Shown: positions 45,982-64,000 of the stretch, piece by piece
How positions within the stretch are numbered: position 1 is the first letter of the stretch
Layout of the letters: each line of letters begins with the position of its first letter
Source: Rubrivivax sp.
GTDB taxonomy: Bacteria; Pseudomonadota; Gammaproteobacteria; Burkholderiales; Burkholderiaceae_C
Direction: 5' to 3'
Length of the DNA: 64,000 bases
NCBI GenBank assembly: GCA_019635285.1
Contig: JAHBZS010000007.1
Span: forward strand, 62,001 to 126,000
Notes under the pieces: model-generated
Told to the model about the DNA's origin: nothing
Databases searched by the model: none
What the model saw: the letters and a program-made list of their open reading frames with translations, nothing else
Position numbers and translations under genes: made by a program

Positions 45982-46061
45982 CTAGGGTGTGAAAGCGTGA
46001 TTATAGAGGCGAGGGCCGCACGCAGGCTCCGCACGGAGCGCTGCGTTAGACTGCACGCGCT

Positions 46062-46275
46062 TGCACCAGGTGCCTGCCTCCCCTGCGCGGGGCGGCGGGT
46101 CAAACGGGAAGCCGGTGCGCCGGGGATCTGTTCCCCCGGCCATTCCGGCGCTGCCCCCGCAACGGTAAGCGAGTCGCGTTCGGCACGCAGCCACTGGGTG
46201 ACCCACCTGGGAAGGCGCCGATCGTTCCGGTCCCCTACGGGAACCGGCACTCGCAAGCCCGGATACCGGCCTGAT
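46062..46275 (+). promoter_or_regulatory. Cobalamin (B12) riboswitch upstream of btuB
   Basis: The classical core of a B12 riboswitch is readable in order: CCAGGTGCC (about 46065), GGGAAGCCGGTG (about 46106), the near-invariant GCTGCCCCCGCAACGGTAA (46150-46168), GCCACTGG (46190), GGGAAGGCGC (46209) and the B12 box AAGCCCGGATACCGGCCTGA (46255-46274). Binding of adenosylcobalamin normally shuts off the downstream gene. Between the box and btuB lies a stem CCGCAC-GGGGT-GTGCGG (46326-46342) about 20 bp before the GTG start, which could be part of the expression platform. The rest of the 425 bp between pyrG and btuB contains no gene I can support. Confidence 0.95.
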
Positions 46276-46361
46276 GCACGGGAAGCTGCCGTGGCCCCGC
46301 CACGCCAGCCTTGACTTGAACCAGCCCGCACGGGGTGTGCGGTCGTGAAAGGTGTTTCCTC

Positions 46362-59440: not shown

Positions 59441-60453
59441 GGCGCCGTGCGCTGCCGCAGCAGCCGGAACAGATAGACGCCGCCGAGCACCGCGGTGACC
59501 ACGCCCACCGGCAGCTCTTCGGGGGCGATCAGGGCACGCGAGATCACGTCCGCCACGAGCAACAGCGCCGCACCCATGGCGGCGCTGCCGAGCAGCAGCC
59601 AGCCGTGCGCGCCGGGCGCGTTGCGCCGCACCAGATGCGGCGCGACCAGCCCGACGAAGGCCACCAGTCCGGCCTGGGACACGGCCAGCGCAGTGCCCAG
59701 GCTGAGCATCAGCACCAACCGCAGGCGCACTGCGCCCAAGTCCAGTCCCAGGCTGGCGGCGCTGTCCTCGCCCAGCGTCAGCGCGTCCAGCGCGCGCGCG
59801 TGGCGCCACGCCAGCCAGAGCAGCGGCGCCAGCCCGGCGGCGAGCAGCGCCAGCGCATCCCAGCCCAGGAAGCTGGTGCTGCCGAGCATGAAGACCTGCT
59901 TGCCGCGCAGCGCGTCGGGCGAGGCGACGGTGATCAGGTCGCTGACCGCGCCCAGCACCACGCCCACCACCACGCCGGCGAGCAGCAGGCGCAGCGTCTG
60001 CACCGCACCGCGCGCCAGCATCAGCGTCAACAGAACGCCGGCCAGCGCGCCGGCGAAGGCCGCCGACACCAGGCCGACACGTTCGATCCACATCGCAGTG
60101 GCCAGGCCGAGGCTGTGCCCGCCCAGCGAGGCGGCGGCGAGCACCAGCACCACGCCCAGCGCGGCGCCGGAGGCGCTGCCCAGCAGATAGGGGTCGGCCA
60201 GCGGATTTCGGAACAGCCCCTGCGAGATGGCCCCCGCCAGGCCCAGCAGCGCGCCCACCAGCGCGGCGCCCAGCGTGCGCGGCGCGCGGATCTGGCCCAG
60301 CAGCAGCGCCGCGTCGCCCCCCTGCAGGTCGGCCCAGAAGGCGCCGGGCGAGAAGCCGGCCGATCCGGTGGCCAGCCCCGCAGCGAGGCCCAGACCGATG
60401 ACCAGCGCCATCCAGGCGGCGAGCCGGCGGCGGCGTGCCGCATCGGCTTTCAT
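59437..60453 (-). CDS. btuC: ABC transporter permease, cobalamin/iron-chelate (FecCD) type
   Basis: A 338-residue permease with about ten membrane segments. Family motifs include GQIRAPRTLGAALVGALLGLAGAISQGLFRNPLADP, GS(A)SGAALG and VGLVAPHLVRRN. It overlaps the ATPase gene and the binding-protein gene (ATGA in each case), so all three are translated together. Confidence 0.9.
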   Translation of the reverse strand: MKADAARRRRLAAWMALVIGLGLAAGLATGSAGFSPGAFWADLQGGDAALLLGQIRAPRTLGAALVGALLGLAGAISQGLFRNPLADPYLLGSASGAALGVVLVLAAASLGGHSLGLATAMWIERVGLVSAAFAGALAGVLLTLMLARGAVQTLRLLLAGVVVGVVLGAVSDLITVASPDALRGKQVFMLGSTSFLGWDALALLAAGLAPLLWLAWRHARALDALTLGEDSAASLGLDLGAVRLRLVLMLSLGTALAVSQAGLVAFVGLVAPHLVRRNAPGAHGWLLLGSAAMGAALLLVADVISRALIAPEELPVGVVTAVLGGVYLFRLLRQRTAP

Positions 60454-61367
60454 CGTGCCGTTGCCTTGCCCAGACCGGCCAGGCAGTCCGCGAGCTGCGC
60501 CGCGCCTTCGCCCAGGCGCGGGCCGGGGCGCACCAGCACGTCGAACTGCGCGGCGTCGAAACCGCACAGGCGCTGCTCGCGCACGGCTGCCAGGCCGCCC
60601 CAGCCGGGCCGCCGGGCCAGCGCCGCCTGTTCGCTGCGCAGGCCCATGACGATGTCCGGCCGCGCGCGCACCACGAACTCGGGGTTCAGCTTGGGGAACG
60701 CGCCCAGAGACGCGGGCACGATGTTGCCCATGTGCAGCTGCGTCAGCGTCTCGCCGATGAACGAGGCCGGTCCCGCGGCATAGGGGCCGCCGTCGATCTC
60801 GAAGTAGACGCGCTGGCCGCGCAGCGCCGGCGGTACGCGTGCCGCTGCAGCATCGACGTCGCGCCGGATACGGTCCCAGACGCGTGCGCCGGCGTCGGGC
60901 GTACCCAGCAGCTGCGCGATCAGCTGCAACGCGCGTCGCAGGTCGTCGTGGCTGTCCGACTTCAGGCGCACGACGCGCAGGCCCAGCGCCTGCAGCCGGT
61001 CCATCGCGCGCGACGAGGTCGAGGCCAGCACCACGTCGGGCTTGAGCGCGGCGATGGCTTCGATCTGCGCGTCCTCCATGCCGCCCAGGTGCGGCAGCTC
61101 GGCGACCGGCTCCGGCCAGTTGGAATAGCGGTCCACGCCGACCAGCCGCGGCCCGGCGCCCAGCACCCAGACGATTTCGGTGAGCGAGGGCAGCATGGTG
61201 ACGATGCGCCGCGGCGGCGCGGCGAAGCGATGCTCGATGCCGCGGTCGTCGCGCACGACGATGGGCTGCGCCAGTGCGGCCGTCGCCAGCAGCAGGGCGC
61301 ACAGCGCCGACAGCCGCCGGAGCACTGGCGCAGCGCAGAGAATCGACGTGGGAGCAGATCGGCTCAT
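60450..61367 (-). CDS. btuF: Periplasmic cobalamin-binding protein (BtuF type)
   Basis: A 305-residue binding protein of the helical-backbone class. The signal peptide is at about residues 14-33 (APVLRRLSALCALLLATAALAQ). The mature part has RRIVTMLPSLTEIVWVLGAG and GMEDAQIEAIAALKPDVVLA, typical of BtuF, with GPYAAGPASFIGETL near the ligand cleft. The start is chosen at MSRSAPTS because longer frames upstream are GC-shadow sequence. First gene of the btuFCD operon. A B12-box-like match lies upstream at about 61450-61475. Confidence 0.87.
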   Translation of the reverse strand: MSRSAPTSILCAAPVLRRLSALCALLLATAALAQPIVVRDDRGIEHRFAAPPRRIVTMLPSLTEIVWVLGAGPRLVGVDRYSNWPEPVAELPHLGGMEDAQIEAIAALKPDVVLASTSSRAMDRLQALGLRVVRLKSDSHDDLRRALQLIAQLLGTPDAGARVWDRIRRDVDAAAARVPPALRGQRVYFEIDGGPYAAGPASFIGETLTQLHMGNIVPASLGAFPKLNPEFVVRARPDIVMGLRSEQAALARRPGWGGLAAVREQRLCGFDAAQFDVLVRPGPRLGEGAAQLADCLAGLGKATAR

Positions 61368-61594
61368 GACAAGGACGCAGCGAACGCGCACCGCCGCCTG
61401 CTCCGCGGCCGCGCGCCGTAGGGCGAGCGCCTGCGCGGCTCGCCACCTCGTTGGCCGGGTTCCGGGATGACGCGACGCGCACCAACGCCGGGCATGATAT
61501 CGACTGCGCGGCGTACAGCCGACCGGGGTGTCCGCAAGCACCGGTCACCCGGCTCTGGTACCTTCGCGGCTGACACAAGTTCAGGAATGCCCTC
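61368..61594. other. Divergent intergenic region between btuF and gshA
   Basis: These 227 bases hold no gene I can support. On the btuF strand, near 61455-61475, lies ATCCCGGAACCCGGCC, which agrees with the B12 box of the btuB riboswitch at about 13 of 17 positions. I could not find the other riboswitch core segments (GCCGGTG next to GGGAA, or GCTGCCCCCGCAA), so I do not call a second riboswitch. Confidence 0.5.
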
Positions 61595-63112
61595 ATGACA
61601 CGTTTGAAGGATCGCTTGCAGGCCCTGCCGGCTGCGGCGCTGAAGGGCATGCGCCGCGGCATCGAGAGGGAGAGCCTGCGCTCGCGCTCCGACGGCGCGC
61701 TGGCGGCGACGCCGCATCCGCAGGCGCTGGGCTCGGCGCTGACGCATCCGCACATCACCACCGACTACAGCGAATCGCAGCTGGAGCTGATCACCGGCGC
61801 GCATGCCGACATCGACACCTGCCTGGACGAGCTGACGCAGATCCACCAGTTCGTCTACCGCCACATCGGCGACGAGATGCTGTGGGTGGGCAGCATGCCC
61901 TGCGGGCTGCCGGCCGACGAGAACATCCCCATCGGCGTGTACGGCACCAGCAACGTGGCACGCGCCAAGAGTGTCTACCGCATGGGCCTGGGGCATCGCT
62001 ACGGGCGGCGCATGCAGACCATCTCGGGTATCCACTACAACTGGTCGCTGCCGGGGCTGAGCAACGAGGACTACTTCGGTCTGATCCGCAACTTCCGTCG
62101 CCACAGCTTCCTGCTGCTGTACCTGTTCGGCGCGTCGCCGGCGGTGTGTTCGAGTTTCGTCGCCGGGCGCGAGCACGGCCTGCAGTCGCTGAAGGGCGGC
62201 ACCTTGTACCTGCCGCATGCCACCAGCCTGCGCATGGGGCGGCTGGGCTACCAGAGCGACGCGCAGGCGTCGCTGGCCGTGTCGTACAACAGCCTGCAGA
62301 GCTACGGCGCGTCGCTGCAGCAGGCGCTGACCGTGCCGTACCCAGCCTACGAGGCGATCGGCATCCGCAACCCGGGCGGCGAATACAACCAGCTGGCCAC
62401 CACGCTGCTGCAGATCGAGAACGAGTTCTACGGCACCATCCGCCCCAAGCGCGTGATCTTCCCCGGCGAGCGGCCGCTGCACGCGCTGCGCGAACGCGGC
62501 GTCGAATACGTCGAAGTGCGCTGCATGGACTTGGACCCGTTCGTGCCCGTCGGCATCGAAGCGCCCACCATGCGCTTCATCGACCTGTTCCTGCTGCACT
62601 GCCTGCTCAGCGACAGCCCGCCGGACACGCCCCAGGAAATCGCCGCGCTGGGCCGCAACCAGCAGCGCGTGGCCGCGCGCGGGCGCGAGCCGGGGCTCAA
62701 GCTGGAGCGCGGCGACGCCGAACTGCCGCTGGTGGAGTGGGGCGCGCAGATCGTCGACGAGATGGAACTGCTGGCCAACGCCATGGACGTCGCCCTGGGC
62801 GGGCGGCGCTACCGCGATGCCTGGCAGGCGGCGTCGCGACTGCTGAACGCGCCTGAGCAATTGCCGTCGGCACGCGTGCTGGCGACCATGGGCACGGACT
62901 TCGACGGCTCCTACCTGCGCTTTACGCGCGCGCAGTCGGTGCAGACGCGCAACCTTCTGCTCGGCCTGCCTTGGAGCGAGGCGCAGCAGCGCAGCTTCGA
63001 GGCCATGGCGCGAGACTCGGTGCTGGAGCAAAAGCGCATCGAAGCCTCCGACACCATGCCCTTCGAGATCTACAGGCAAGAGTACCTGGCGCCGCAGCGA
63101 CTGGGGATCTGA
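61595..63112 (+). CDS. gshA: Glutamate-cysteine ligase
   Basis: A 505-residue ATP-dependent ligase, first step of glutathione synthesis. The N-terminal motif RGIERESLR, TTDYSESQLELIT, the core MQTISGIHYNWSLP and the C-terminal half with IRNPGGEYNQLATTLLQIENEFY and RCMDLDPFVP are all family blocks of the proteobacterial type (GCL class 1). Length fits. Start MTRLKDRLQALP at the ATG is standard. Confidence 0.95.
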   Translation: MTRLKDRLQALPAAALKGMRRGIERESLRSRSDGALAATPHPQALGSALTHPHITTDYSESQLELITGAHADIDTCLDELTQIHQFVYRHIGDEMLWVGSMPCGLPADENIPIGVYGTSNVARAKSVYRMGLGHRYGRRMQTISGIHYNWSLPGLSNEDYFGLIRNFRRHSFLLLYLFGASPAVCSSFVAGREHGLQSLKGGTLYLPHATSLRMGRLGYQSDAQASLAVSYNSLQSYGASLQQALTVPYPAYEAIGIRNPGGEYNQLATTLLQIENEFYGTIRPKRVIFPGERPLHALRERGVEYVEVRCMDLDPFVPVGIEAPTMRFIDLFLLHCLLSDSPPDTPQEIAALGRNQQRVAARGREPGLKLERGDAELPLVEWGAQIVDEMELLANAMDVALGGRRYRDAWQAASRLLNAPEQLPSARVLATMGTDFDGSYLRFTRAQSVQTRNLLLGLPWSEAQQRSFEAMARDSVLEQKRIEASDTMPFEIYRQEYLAPQRLGI

Positions 63113-63172
63113 GTTCGGGTCGTTTGCGGCGCTTTGCCGCCTTTGGTGAGTCGCCTTTCAAGGCCCGCGCGA

Positions 63173-63277
63173 GCCGAGGCTGACGGGCAAGCGCATCCGC
63201 TCATGTCCCCCGATCGCGCCGTGCACGGCGCGCTCTCCTCCTTTACTTCCCGGATGCGCTTGCCCGTCATCCTCGGC
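63173..63277 (-). repeat. 105-bp hairpin element, copy 1
   Basis: Outer stem GCCGAGG/CCTCGGC continues as a perfect 19-bp stem (63181-63199 with 63251-63269). Inside it is a big internal loop and a perfect 18-bp inner palindrome (63215-63232). Read on the minus strand, the loop strands are GGAAGTAAAGGAGGAGAG and ATCGGGGGACATGAG. Copy 2 has the same two strands with no change. Confidence 0.9.
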
Positions 63278-63392
63278 AGGCACCTGCCGGGTCTTCGCAG
63301 CGCCCAGAAACAGCACGCGCTGCGCCTCGCGGCAGTGCTCTCAGGAAGGGGTTGTTGTCTTTGCGGCCTCGGCAGTGAGCTGGCGGTGCCAA

Positions 63393-63497
63393 GCCGAGGC
63401 TGGTGGGTGAGCGCATCCGGGAAGTAAAGGAGGAGAGCGCGCCATTCATGGCGCGATCGGGGGACATGAGCGGATGCGTTCGCCCACCAGCCTCGGC
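63393..63497 (+). repeat. 105-bp hairpin element, copy 2 (opposite orientation)
   Basis: Same architecture on the plus strand: outer arms CTGGTGGGTGAGCGCATCCG and CGGATGCGTTCGCCCACCAG (two G.T/G.U pairs, otherwise complementary), loop strands GGAAGTAAAGGAGGAGAG (63420-63437) and ATCGGGGGACATGAG (63456-63470) and an inner stem at 63438-63455 whose centre differs by paired changes from copy 1. This pattern points to selection on RNA or hairpin structure. Confidence 0.9.
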
Positions 63498-63550
63498 CCG
63501 CGCAGACCTCAAAGAAACACAGCGGCCCGACGAGAGACTGCAAAGCGCCG

Positions 63551-64000
63551 CTACCTGCCGCTCGTCACCTGGAGTTGAGGAGACGACGAGGCGCCCAAAA
63601 CACGCCCGACGACGGCCGCGTCGCCGAAGCCGTGCCGGCGGAACGTTGCCAGCACCGCCTCCAGCGCCGCCGGCTCGCAGGCCACCAGCAGGCCGCCGCT
63701 GGTCTGCGGGTCGGTGAGCAAGGCGCGGTCCTCGGCGGCAAAGCCGTTGGGCAGCACCGCCTGCGCGCCGTAGCCTGCCCAGTTGCGGCCCGACGCGCCG
63801 GTGACCATGCCCTGCGCCGCCAGCGCGCGCACTCCGGGCAGCAGCGGCACCGCGCTCCAGTCGATCTGCACATCGCAGCTTGCGCCGCGCGCCATCTCCA
63901 GCGCATGGCCGGCCAGGCCGAAGCCGGTGACATCGGTCATCGCGTGCACGCCCGGCAACTCGGCCAGGTCCGGGCCGGGTGTGTTGAGCCGCGTCGTCGT
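63551..64000 (-). CDS. selD: Selenophosphate synthetase, C-terminal part (window-truncated)
   Basis: Selenide, water dikinase, making selenophosphate from selenide and ATP; the 149 C-terminal residues are visible and the N-terminus, with the active-site Cys/Sec region, lies beyond the window. [15 protein letters not shown] and [21 protein letters not shown] are the signature C-terminal blocks. The stop (TAG, 63551-63553) sits on the inverted end of the hairpin block. Selenophosphate serves selenocysteine or 2-selenouridine in tRNA; the local formate dehydrogenase uses Cys, so the tRNA route or another selenoprotein elsewhere is likely. Confidence 0.92.

Follow-up and report, generated by a model that had tools for sequence, protein, structure and literature searches.

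A dispersed bacterial repeat carrying two facing hairpins with covarying stems and a one-strand mismatch bias

Results

Two facing hairpins lie between convergent gshA and selD-like genes

Near the end of the window, that is, the whole stretch of 64,000 nucleotides that was analyzed, a gene for glutamate-cysteine ligase (gshA; PF04262, E 3.9e-145) and a selD-like gene with an AIRS_C domain (PF02769, E 1.6e-17) converge on block 63126-63551. The coordinates of this 426-bp block, its two facing hairpins of about 105 nt, and its 12-bp inverted ends (Table 1) are all as the original prediction gave them. A covariance model built from 53 copies, the two hairpins of the window not among them, found both hairpins and gave no third match in the window up to E = 1. 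Each hairpin folded on either strand with a stability z of -6.2 to -8.2, and none of 200 dinucleotide shuffles was as good.

Table 1. Features of the repeat unit in the window (window coordinates; "." marks features without strand)
Feature	Position	Strand	Basis or description
Whole repeat unit, single copy	63126..63551	.	426 bp
Left inverted end, 12 bp, GCGGCGCTTTGC	63126..63137	.	Exact reverse complement of 63540-63551
Hairpin 1, purine strand = genome - strand	63174..63276	-	Covariance model, 79.1 bits, E 4.1e-17; fold
Core of hairpin 1 (inner stem flanked by two conserved loop strands)	63201..63249	-	Pattern match
Centre separating hairpins 1 and 2	63278..63392	.	Not conserved between relatives
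Hairpin 2, purine strand = genome + strand	63394..63496	+	Covariance model, 80.8 bits, E 1.6e-17
Core of hairpin 2	63421..63469	+	Pattern match
Right inverted end, 12 bp, GCAAAGCGCCGC	63540..63551	.	Exact reverse complement of 63126-63137

The outer stem of hairpin 1, which had been described as perfect, contains one mismatch (C63180 versus T63270). The two G.U pairs ascribed to hairpin 2 are present on the + strand; on the - strand, the same two odd pairs are A.C and interrupt the predicted stem, so that the stem of hairpin 2 is unbroken on the + strand only. This difference between the strands turned out to be the informative point.

The original prediction had also considered a terminator or REP pair serving gshA and selD. 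We found no terminator-like site in 63080-63600, and in those relatives for which both genes were among the matches listed, gshA and selD lie on separate contigs; both results argue against such a service. No Rfam family matched the hairpins: region 60000-64000 gave no match up to E = 1, and the 8 matches up to E = 1 obtained for 14 loci with copies were all far below the gathering score. The sole Rfam match of the whole window at gathering score was a cobalamin riboswitch at 46051-46288 (+ strand, 94.5 bits).

The block is one copy of a dispersed, many-copy repeat

Five further places in the same genome match 377-434 bases of the block with 86-95% identity, and the likeness of the six aligned copies ends near the inverted ends of the unit. 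The block is one copy of a dispersed, many-copy repeat. The genome (4.9 Mb, 89 contigs) yielded 47 matches to the left hairpin, corresponding to approximately 21 places plus one 37-base fragment; by our reading of the matches, the places fall into two subfamilies. Both hairpins were present at 13 places, of which three are truncated where a contig stops; of the remaining 8 places, 7 sit at contig ends.

Relatives were detected by BLAST in 17 of 61 genomes including the own one, 15 of the 17 within the genus. The occurrence is patchy: a strict pattern for the core was present in 12 genomes, the own one among them, out of 399 sampled within the order (control 0), and the covariance model found the element in at least 11, again counting the own genome, out of 398 sampled within the phylum. 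These 11 span two families; the count is a lower bound, since scoring covered 10 candidates per genome and used stricter filters. Species genomes, when scanned, yielded at least 118 stretches with the element. It is found in many Burkholderiales, some Rhodocyclales, and some Lysobacterales; among the matches listed are Rubrivivax, Hydrogenophaga, Rhodoferax, Rhizobacter, Methylibium, Variovorax, Aquabacterium, Caldimonas, Sulfurisoma, a Rhodocyclales MAG, an Oxalobacteraceae strain, Luteimonas, Lysobacter, and Pseudoxanthomonas. Luteimonas terricola (145 raw matches, about 40 units by our reading) and genome G027 (75 raw matches) are very rich in the element. Plasmid and phage collections gave no match, and neither did viral contigs.

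Compensatory changes maintain the fold

The purine strand of each hairpin is the one recognized by GAAGTAAAGGAGGAG..CGGGGGACATGA. A 22-bp outer stem is followed by a G.A pair, one variable pair, an A.G pair, a GC step, and the loop strand GAAGUAAAGGAGGA; then come a variable GC-rich inner stem, the second loop strand GGGGGACAUGA, and the return arm. This order was derived from alignment A1, comprising those 53 of the 146 non-redundant copies that have a 19-nt inner part. Standard pairs occupied 94.7% of the stem cells in A1, and two-sided changes occurred at 31 of 33 pairs. We counted 523 double-change cells, versus 143 ± 10 in 500 shuffles, and sliding the structures by 1-3 columns left a pairing of only 37-41%. 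The base of the stem is variable across the 53 copies, and no tag was seen there.

The alignment to the covariance model contained 291 matches, of which 285 were full-length and 127 non-redundant. Fourteen loop positions were invariant in all 127 (U32, A34, A35, G36, G37, G39, G40, A41, G63, G64, G66, A68, C69, and A70), and G67 was kept in 126. Two non-canonical pairs swap with canonical ones: pair 28.73 was G.A in 104 cases, G-C in 18, and A-T in 2, and pair 29.72 was A.G in 107, A-T in 17, and G-C in 2. Pair 38.65 was A.G in 118 cases, G.A in 8, A.A in 1, and never G.G; the eight G.A cases may go back to a few events. A variant core, in which the A lies in the 3' instead of the 5' loop strand (AAGGGGGAG..GGAGGAC) and Watson-Crick pairs take the place of the tandem G.A pairs, occurs in L345, L353, and relatives (G360, G086).

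Rates of change per site and copy were determined among copies within one genome for three genomes. In Luteimonas (22 units), they amounted to 0.018 for the left stem, 0.037 for the right stem, 0.016 for the core, and 0.133 for the centre. The corresponding values were 0.023, 0.038, 0.013, and 0.074 in the own genome (6 units) and 0.015, 0.015, 0.037, and 0.087 in G027 (6 units). Stems and core thus change 2 to 8 times more slowly than the centre. The covariation seen in divergent relatives lends strong support to the original prediction that a folded structure is under selection.

The conserved core may be read in more than one way. Judged from its sequence, the GGNGGA/GGNGGA core possibly forms a quadruplex of two layers, in which the inner stem would be a loop; when quadruplexes were allowed during folding, by a method that disallows long loops, one was chosen in 2 of the 53 copies. 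Alternatively, every copy can be seen as keeping at least one GGAGG, a string that resembles a ribosome-binding site. The (GGA)4 RNA quadruplex of aptamer R12 is reported to consist of a tetrad and a hexad (PMC7080826). GG-N-GG-A strings are common to R12, as described there, and the hairpin core; in the latter, unlike in R12, a stem separates the two GGNGGA halves, and N is A in one of them and G in the other.

Mismatches indicate selection on one strand of each hairpin

The 146 non-redundant copies differ at more than 20% of arm positions and were chosen by their loops alone, so that their stems are unbiased by the search. On the purine strand, their outer stems contained 266 G.U but only 19 A.C mismatches, and 82 further cells were mismatched in other ways. 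The G.U to A.C ratio of the inner stem was 35:8. The bias was present in left (92:4) and right hairpins (109:8), at convergent places (43:2), and both where the purine strand is sense (61:3) and where it is antisense (54:0) to codirectional neighbours, with genes called by a simple custom coding score. It was likewise seen in the model-fitted set (239:19), where the model itself may favour G.U. Lysobacterales copies (n = 7) gave 13:3 and the other 135 copies 250:29, gaps excluded. Because the mismatches are G.U and rarely A.C, alike in sense and antisense hairpins, selection acts on one of the two strands of every hairpin. What is selected is the purine strand by itself, and each strand of the unit holds one selected hairpin, nearer its 3' end.

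As a control, we examined 500 kb of E. coli K-12 for REP hairpins, which are reported to be processed as single-stranded DNA (PMC8266576). These hairpins showed 25 G.T and 23 A.C mismatches in 108 hits, in a control that is small, with seven pairs per hairpin and a fuzzy pattern. The tagged hits (n = 63) gave 13 to 12 and stricter settings 3:5 (70 hits) or 8:9 (85 hits); a looser count, now superseded, had given 109 G.T and 101 A.C in 325 hits, many of them false. Taken together, the G.U bias of the purine strand and the E. coli control lean towards RNA, without proving it; a new structured RNA was among the options of the original prediction. Single-stranded DNA is also compatible, and G.T is better tolerated than A.C in DNA as well.

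Among recent changes within the three genomes, 16 led from Watson-Crick pairs to G.U, 6 to A.C, and 9 to other mismatches, while 22 gave Watson-Crick pairing where the majority sequence has G.U. The recent bias (16:6) is weaker than the long-run one (266:19), as purging would give, although the numbers are small and non-independent.

It might be argued that the hairpins are functionless palindromes kept by template switching (quasipalindrome correction), with strand-biased mutation producing the G.U excess. Copying from arm to arm would imitate compensatory change, the weaker bias of recent changes would fit, and hairpins are indeed lost through deletions ending at the arms (L455, L441). Against this stand the 14 unpaired loop positions that are identical in 127 of 127 divergent copies, with one more in 126, the replacement of tandem G.A pairs by Watson-Crick pairs, the slower change of core and stems than of the centre in three genomes, and a bias that is stronger in the long run than recently. 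We therefore consider this explanation very improbable.

The hairpins reside within at least two kinds of unit ends

In Luteimonas terricola, the end pattern GGNTCWTCTCCSRAYT gave 64 matches with at most one mismatch, and the reversed control gave 0. Facing pairs of this pattern delimit units of approximately 400 bp with terminal inverted repeats of 16 bp, the ends lying 35-80 bp beyond the hairpins. The 8-bp flanks of 18 candidate units, one of which (in L432) looks like a chance pair, agreed at 0.729, versus 0.359 ± 0.065 for shuffled partners (0/500); those in L203 and L219 are perfect repeats other than single-base runs. Five Ts within 20 bp were found at 18 of 36 ends, versus 0.6% of stretches from the same loci, and by eye many units adjoin the T-tract of an intrinsic terminator hairpin. 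The ends, the flank duplications, and the T-rich sites thus characterize the unit as a miniature transposon with a preference for T-tracts. The Luteimonas ends may be similar to the ends of ISL3-type insertion sequences; a literature search on this point found nothing.

Three Rubrivivax-type genomes have outer ends that differ from the Luteimonas ends, reading CGGC..TTGCGG.CGTTCG in G018 and G027. No target duplication was detected among 13 units in G018, 7 candidates in G027, or 15 candidates in G000 (several of these 15 being chance pairs). The best z values of the duplication scan were 2.3, 2.6, and 3.8 at differing lengths and offsets in the three Rubrivivax-type genomes, compared to 5.6 in Luteimonas; movement in G018, G027, and G000 is consequently indicated solely by the dispersal of copies. 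The hairpin module occurs inside at least two kinds of ends. A hairpin-type mobile element, one of the options in the original prediction, agrees well with the dispersed copies of 86-95% identity in the own genome and with the terminal inverted repeats and 8-bp target duplications in Luteimonas.

Neighbouring model matches faced each other in 103 of 107 pairs. Of the 291 listed model matches, 79 stood alone, partly because loci are cut and because A2 includes 150 of 171 matches. Several units depart from the usual arrangement. One spacer of G527 (L355, 1311-1755) contains three hairpins, two in the same direction followed by one facing them. In G018 (L295-L306, L313), ends of the same kind enclose one hairpin of the family and a different long nested palindrome (GCAAAGGTGGGCTGGGGCTGGCTGTGGCGC...), and the inner stems of these composite units bear additional palindromes. 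In L455 and L441 of Luteimonas terricola, one hairpin or parts of both are deleted up to the arms, and the ends are intact.

No clean empty site was found for the window locus or for one R. gelatinosus unit compared with R. benzoatilyticus. At the window locus, gshA and selD were on separate contigs in the relatives for which both were listed. The orthologous spacer in R. benzoatilyticus is occupied by another palindromic repeat of similar length (GGGGTCAGGTCTCACGAGACCTGACCCC, present twice; L395, approximately 1170-1500), as if this spacer attracted palindromes.

The units, at 273-594 bp in the listed sets, are too short for a transposase. No facing Luteimonas ends 1-4 kb apart were seen by eye among the 64 end matches. 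In Rubrivivax gelatinosus (L058, 1728-4341), facing hairpins lie 2.5 kb apart with small unrecognized ORFs between them; we inspected these by eye for an autonomous element and recognized no transposase. A reverse transcriptase was considered and rejected: RVT_1 was found in 5 of 12 element-bearing genomes and was not found in G018, G024, G027, G061, G208, G285, and G465. RAYT was dismissed as the mobilizer. Its domain, Y1_Tnp, was found in 7 of 11 element-bearing and 3 of 9 other genomes, some of which are incomplete, and was not found in G000, G018, G024, and G061.

The main rival to our interpretation is a giant REP/BIME-like element, the hairpins of which would serve as recognition sites for a putative endonuclease or transposase that binds them as folded single-stranded DNA, on one strand, with the facing pair moving like REPINs. 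Facing pairs in which each strand has one selected hairpin are arranged as in BIMEs, the predominance of facing neighbours conforms to it, and the tolerance of DNA for G.T over A.C would permit the bias. TnpA-REP is moreover reported to be active on the REP but not on its complement and to need stem mismatches (PMC8266576). Three results weigh on the other side: the lack of a Y1_Tnp match in 4 of 11 element-bearing genomes, which also speaks against the REP-pair part of the gshA/selD proposal; the absence of the mismatch bias from E. coli REPs (25:23); and the Luteimonas unit, which ends well beyond the hairpins, at inverted repeats with target duplications. We regard the REP/BIME-like element as a real possibility, with a chance of somewhat above one in four.

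Most copies lie downstream of genes

Spacers bearing the element were codirectional in 68 cases, convergent in 38, and divergent in 7, whereas element-free spacers of 60-1500 bp from the same loci were codirectional in 124, convergent in 36, and divergent in 56. Thus, the element lies mostly downstream of genes. A superseded count had given 61 codirectional, 36 convergent, and 5 divergent places, with 8 inside and 32 at an edge. We looked for a gene common to the neighbourhoods and rejected the idea, as the largest clusters covered just 8, 5, 5, and 5 of 80 loci. Ten neighbour proteins inspected by eye were presumably transporters, a biotin carboxylase, an aldehyde dehydrogenase, and products of other metabolic genes. 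A biotin-carboxylase-like gene, so named by eye, occurs near the element in 5 of 80 loci (L090, L095, L099, L116, L119); in L099 and L116, it is situated about 100 bp downstream of the element.

The location at gene ends and the high stability of the hairpins would suit an RNA in 3' UTRs that serves the host, acting as a bidirectional terminator or as a block to 3' exonucleases for the flanking genes. However, antisense hairpins match sense ones in their bias (54:0 and 61:3) and in how well they pair, and the equally strong selection on antisense copies makes a host terminator or regulator less likely. Furthermore, the block lacks a terminator-like site, many Luteimonas units are already beside the T-tract of an intrinsic terminator, the element occurs patchily, and the same context is expected of any repeat that avoids promoters. 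A host-serving RNA is therefore improbable in our estimation, the giant REPIN-like element being the main rival.

Discussion

Our best explanation, in which we have about even confidence, is a MITE-like, non-autonomous repeat with facing, strand-selected hairpins as passengers, which most likely act as RNA and benefit the element. A putative transposase, of the DDE type in Luteimonas, would move the unit in trans via its outer ends. These ends would be the cutting sites and the hairpins a conserved passenger, because the same module occurs with two or more kinds of ends. In transcripts reading through into the unit from either side, the hairpin would act as RNA, and every transcript would bear, towards its far end, a single hairpin of the selected kind. 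The core, with its tandem G.A pairs and GGNGGA/GGNGGA, would be bound by a cellular factor. The likely gain would fall to the element, e.g., through tolerable insertions at the 3' ends of genes, rather than to one neighbouring gene. More tentatively, we propose that a strand-specific module, consisting of a long covarying hairpin with a GGNGGA/GGNGGA core that is perhaps a two-layer quadruplex looped by a hairpin, is carried in facing pairs by unrelated miniature transposons of Burkholderiales and Lysobacterales and acts as RNA via a factor; the chance of this being correct is, in our opinion, a little below one in three.

Small mobile repeats are usually thought to be maintained by their ends, whereas here an internal folded module is maintained. 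Its maintenance across many genera, by pair-wise replacement, on one strand, in either gene orientation, and within differing ends suggests that something in the cell reads the fold. The dozens of natural variants can be used to ask which structure lets a repeat persist, that of RNA or that of single-stranded DNA, and the count of G.U versus A.C mismatches offers a simple test for the working strand in other palindromic repeats.

To our knowledge, no MITE has been described with an internal, one-strand covarying module inside different kinds of ends. Prokaryotic MITEs (PMC10969869) and the pneumococcal BOX, RUP, and SPRITE repeats (PMC3049150), as far as described there, resemble the present element in being short and transposase-free, in the terminal inverted repeats and target duplications that it has in Luteimonas, and in their stable folds and location at gene ends. 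Unlike all of these, the present element has an internal module that covaries over many genera, on one strand, and within differing ends.

REPINs and BIMEs are similar in being non-coding, intergenic, many-copy inverted pairs with hairpins whose irregularities are conserved, compensatory changes, and one special strand (PMC3116915, PMC8266576). REPs are reported to comprise 20-50 nt in these sources, whereas each half of the present element is a hairpin of approximately 100 nt with a variable 22-bp stem and a conserved inner loop. Unlike in REPIN/RAYT systems, Y1_Tnp went undetected in several element-rich genomes, and the strong G.U bias was not seen in E. coli REPs. The GTAG- and CGTC-tagged REPs are likewise palindromic and commonly form dimers, and those of the CGTC kind are reported to be without a dedicated transposase; the source gives stems of 5-13 bp and loops of 2-20 bp (PMC3733652), compared to 22 bp plus an inner stem here, and the alignment revealed no tag at the stem base of our element. 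Mitochondrial double-hairpin or repetitive hairpin-forming elements also consist of two hairpins, are dispersed, and are suspected of mobility by a mechanism described as not known (PMC2800124); they differ in being mitochondrial.

The published candidate Burkholderiales-1 comes from the same order, was rated ambiguous as an RNA, and has no Rfam number (PMC2864571). Listed but unexplained in that study, it may be the same motif. The available portions of the open-licence literature on bacterial repeats, hairpin elements, and structured RNAs yielded no description of the motif. We rate the family as belonging among the mobile, hairpin-bearing bacterial repeats. What is new here is the bias for G.U over A.C in the stems of the purine strand, which is alike in hairpins sense and antisense to their neighbours.
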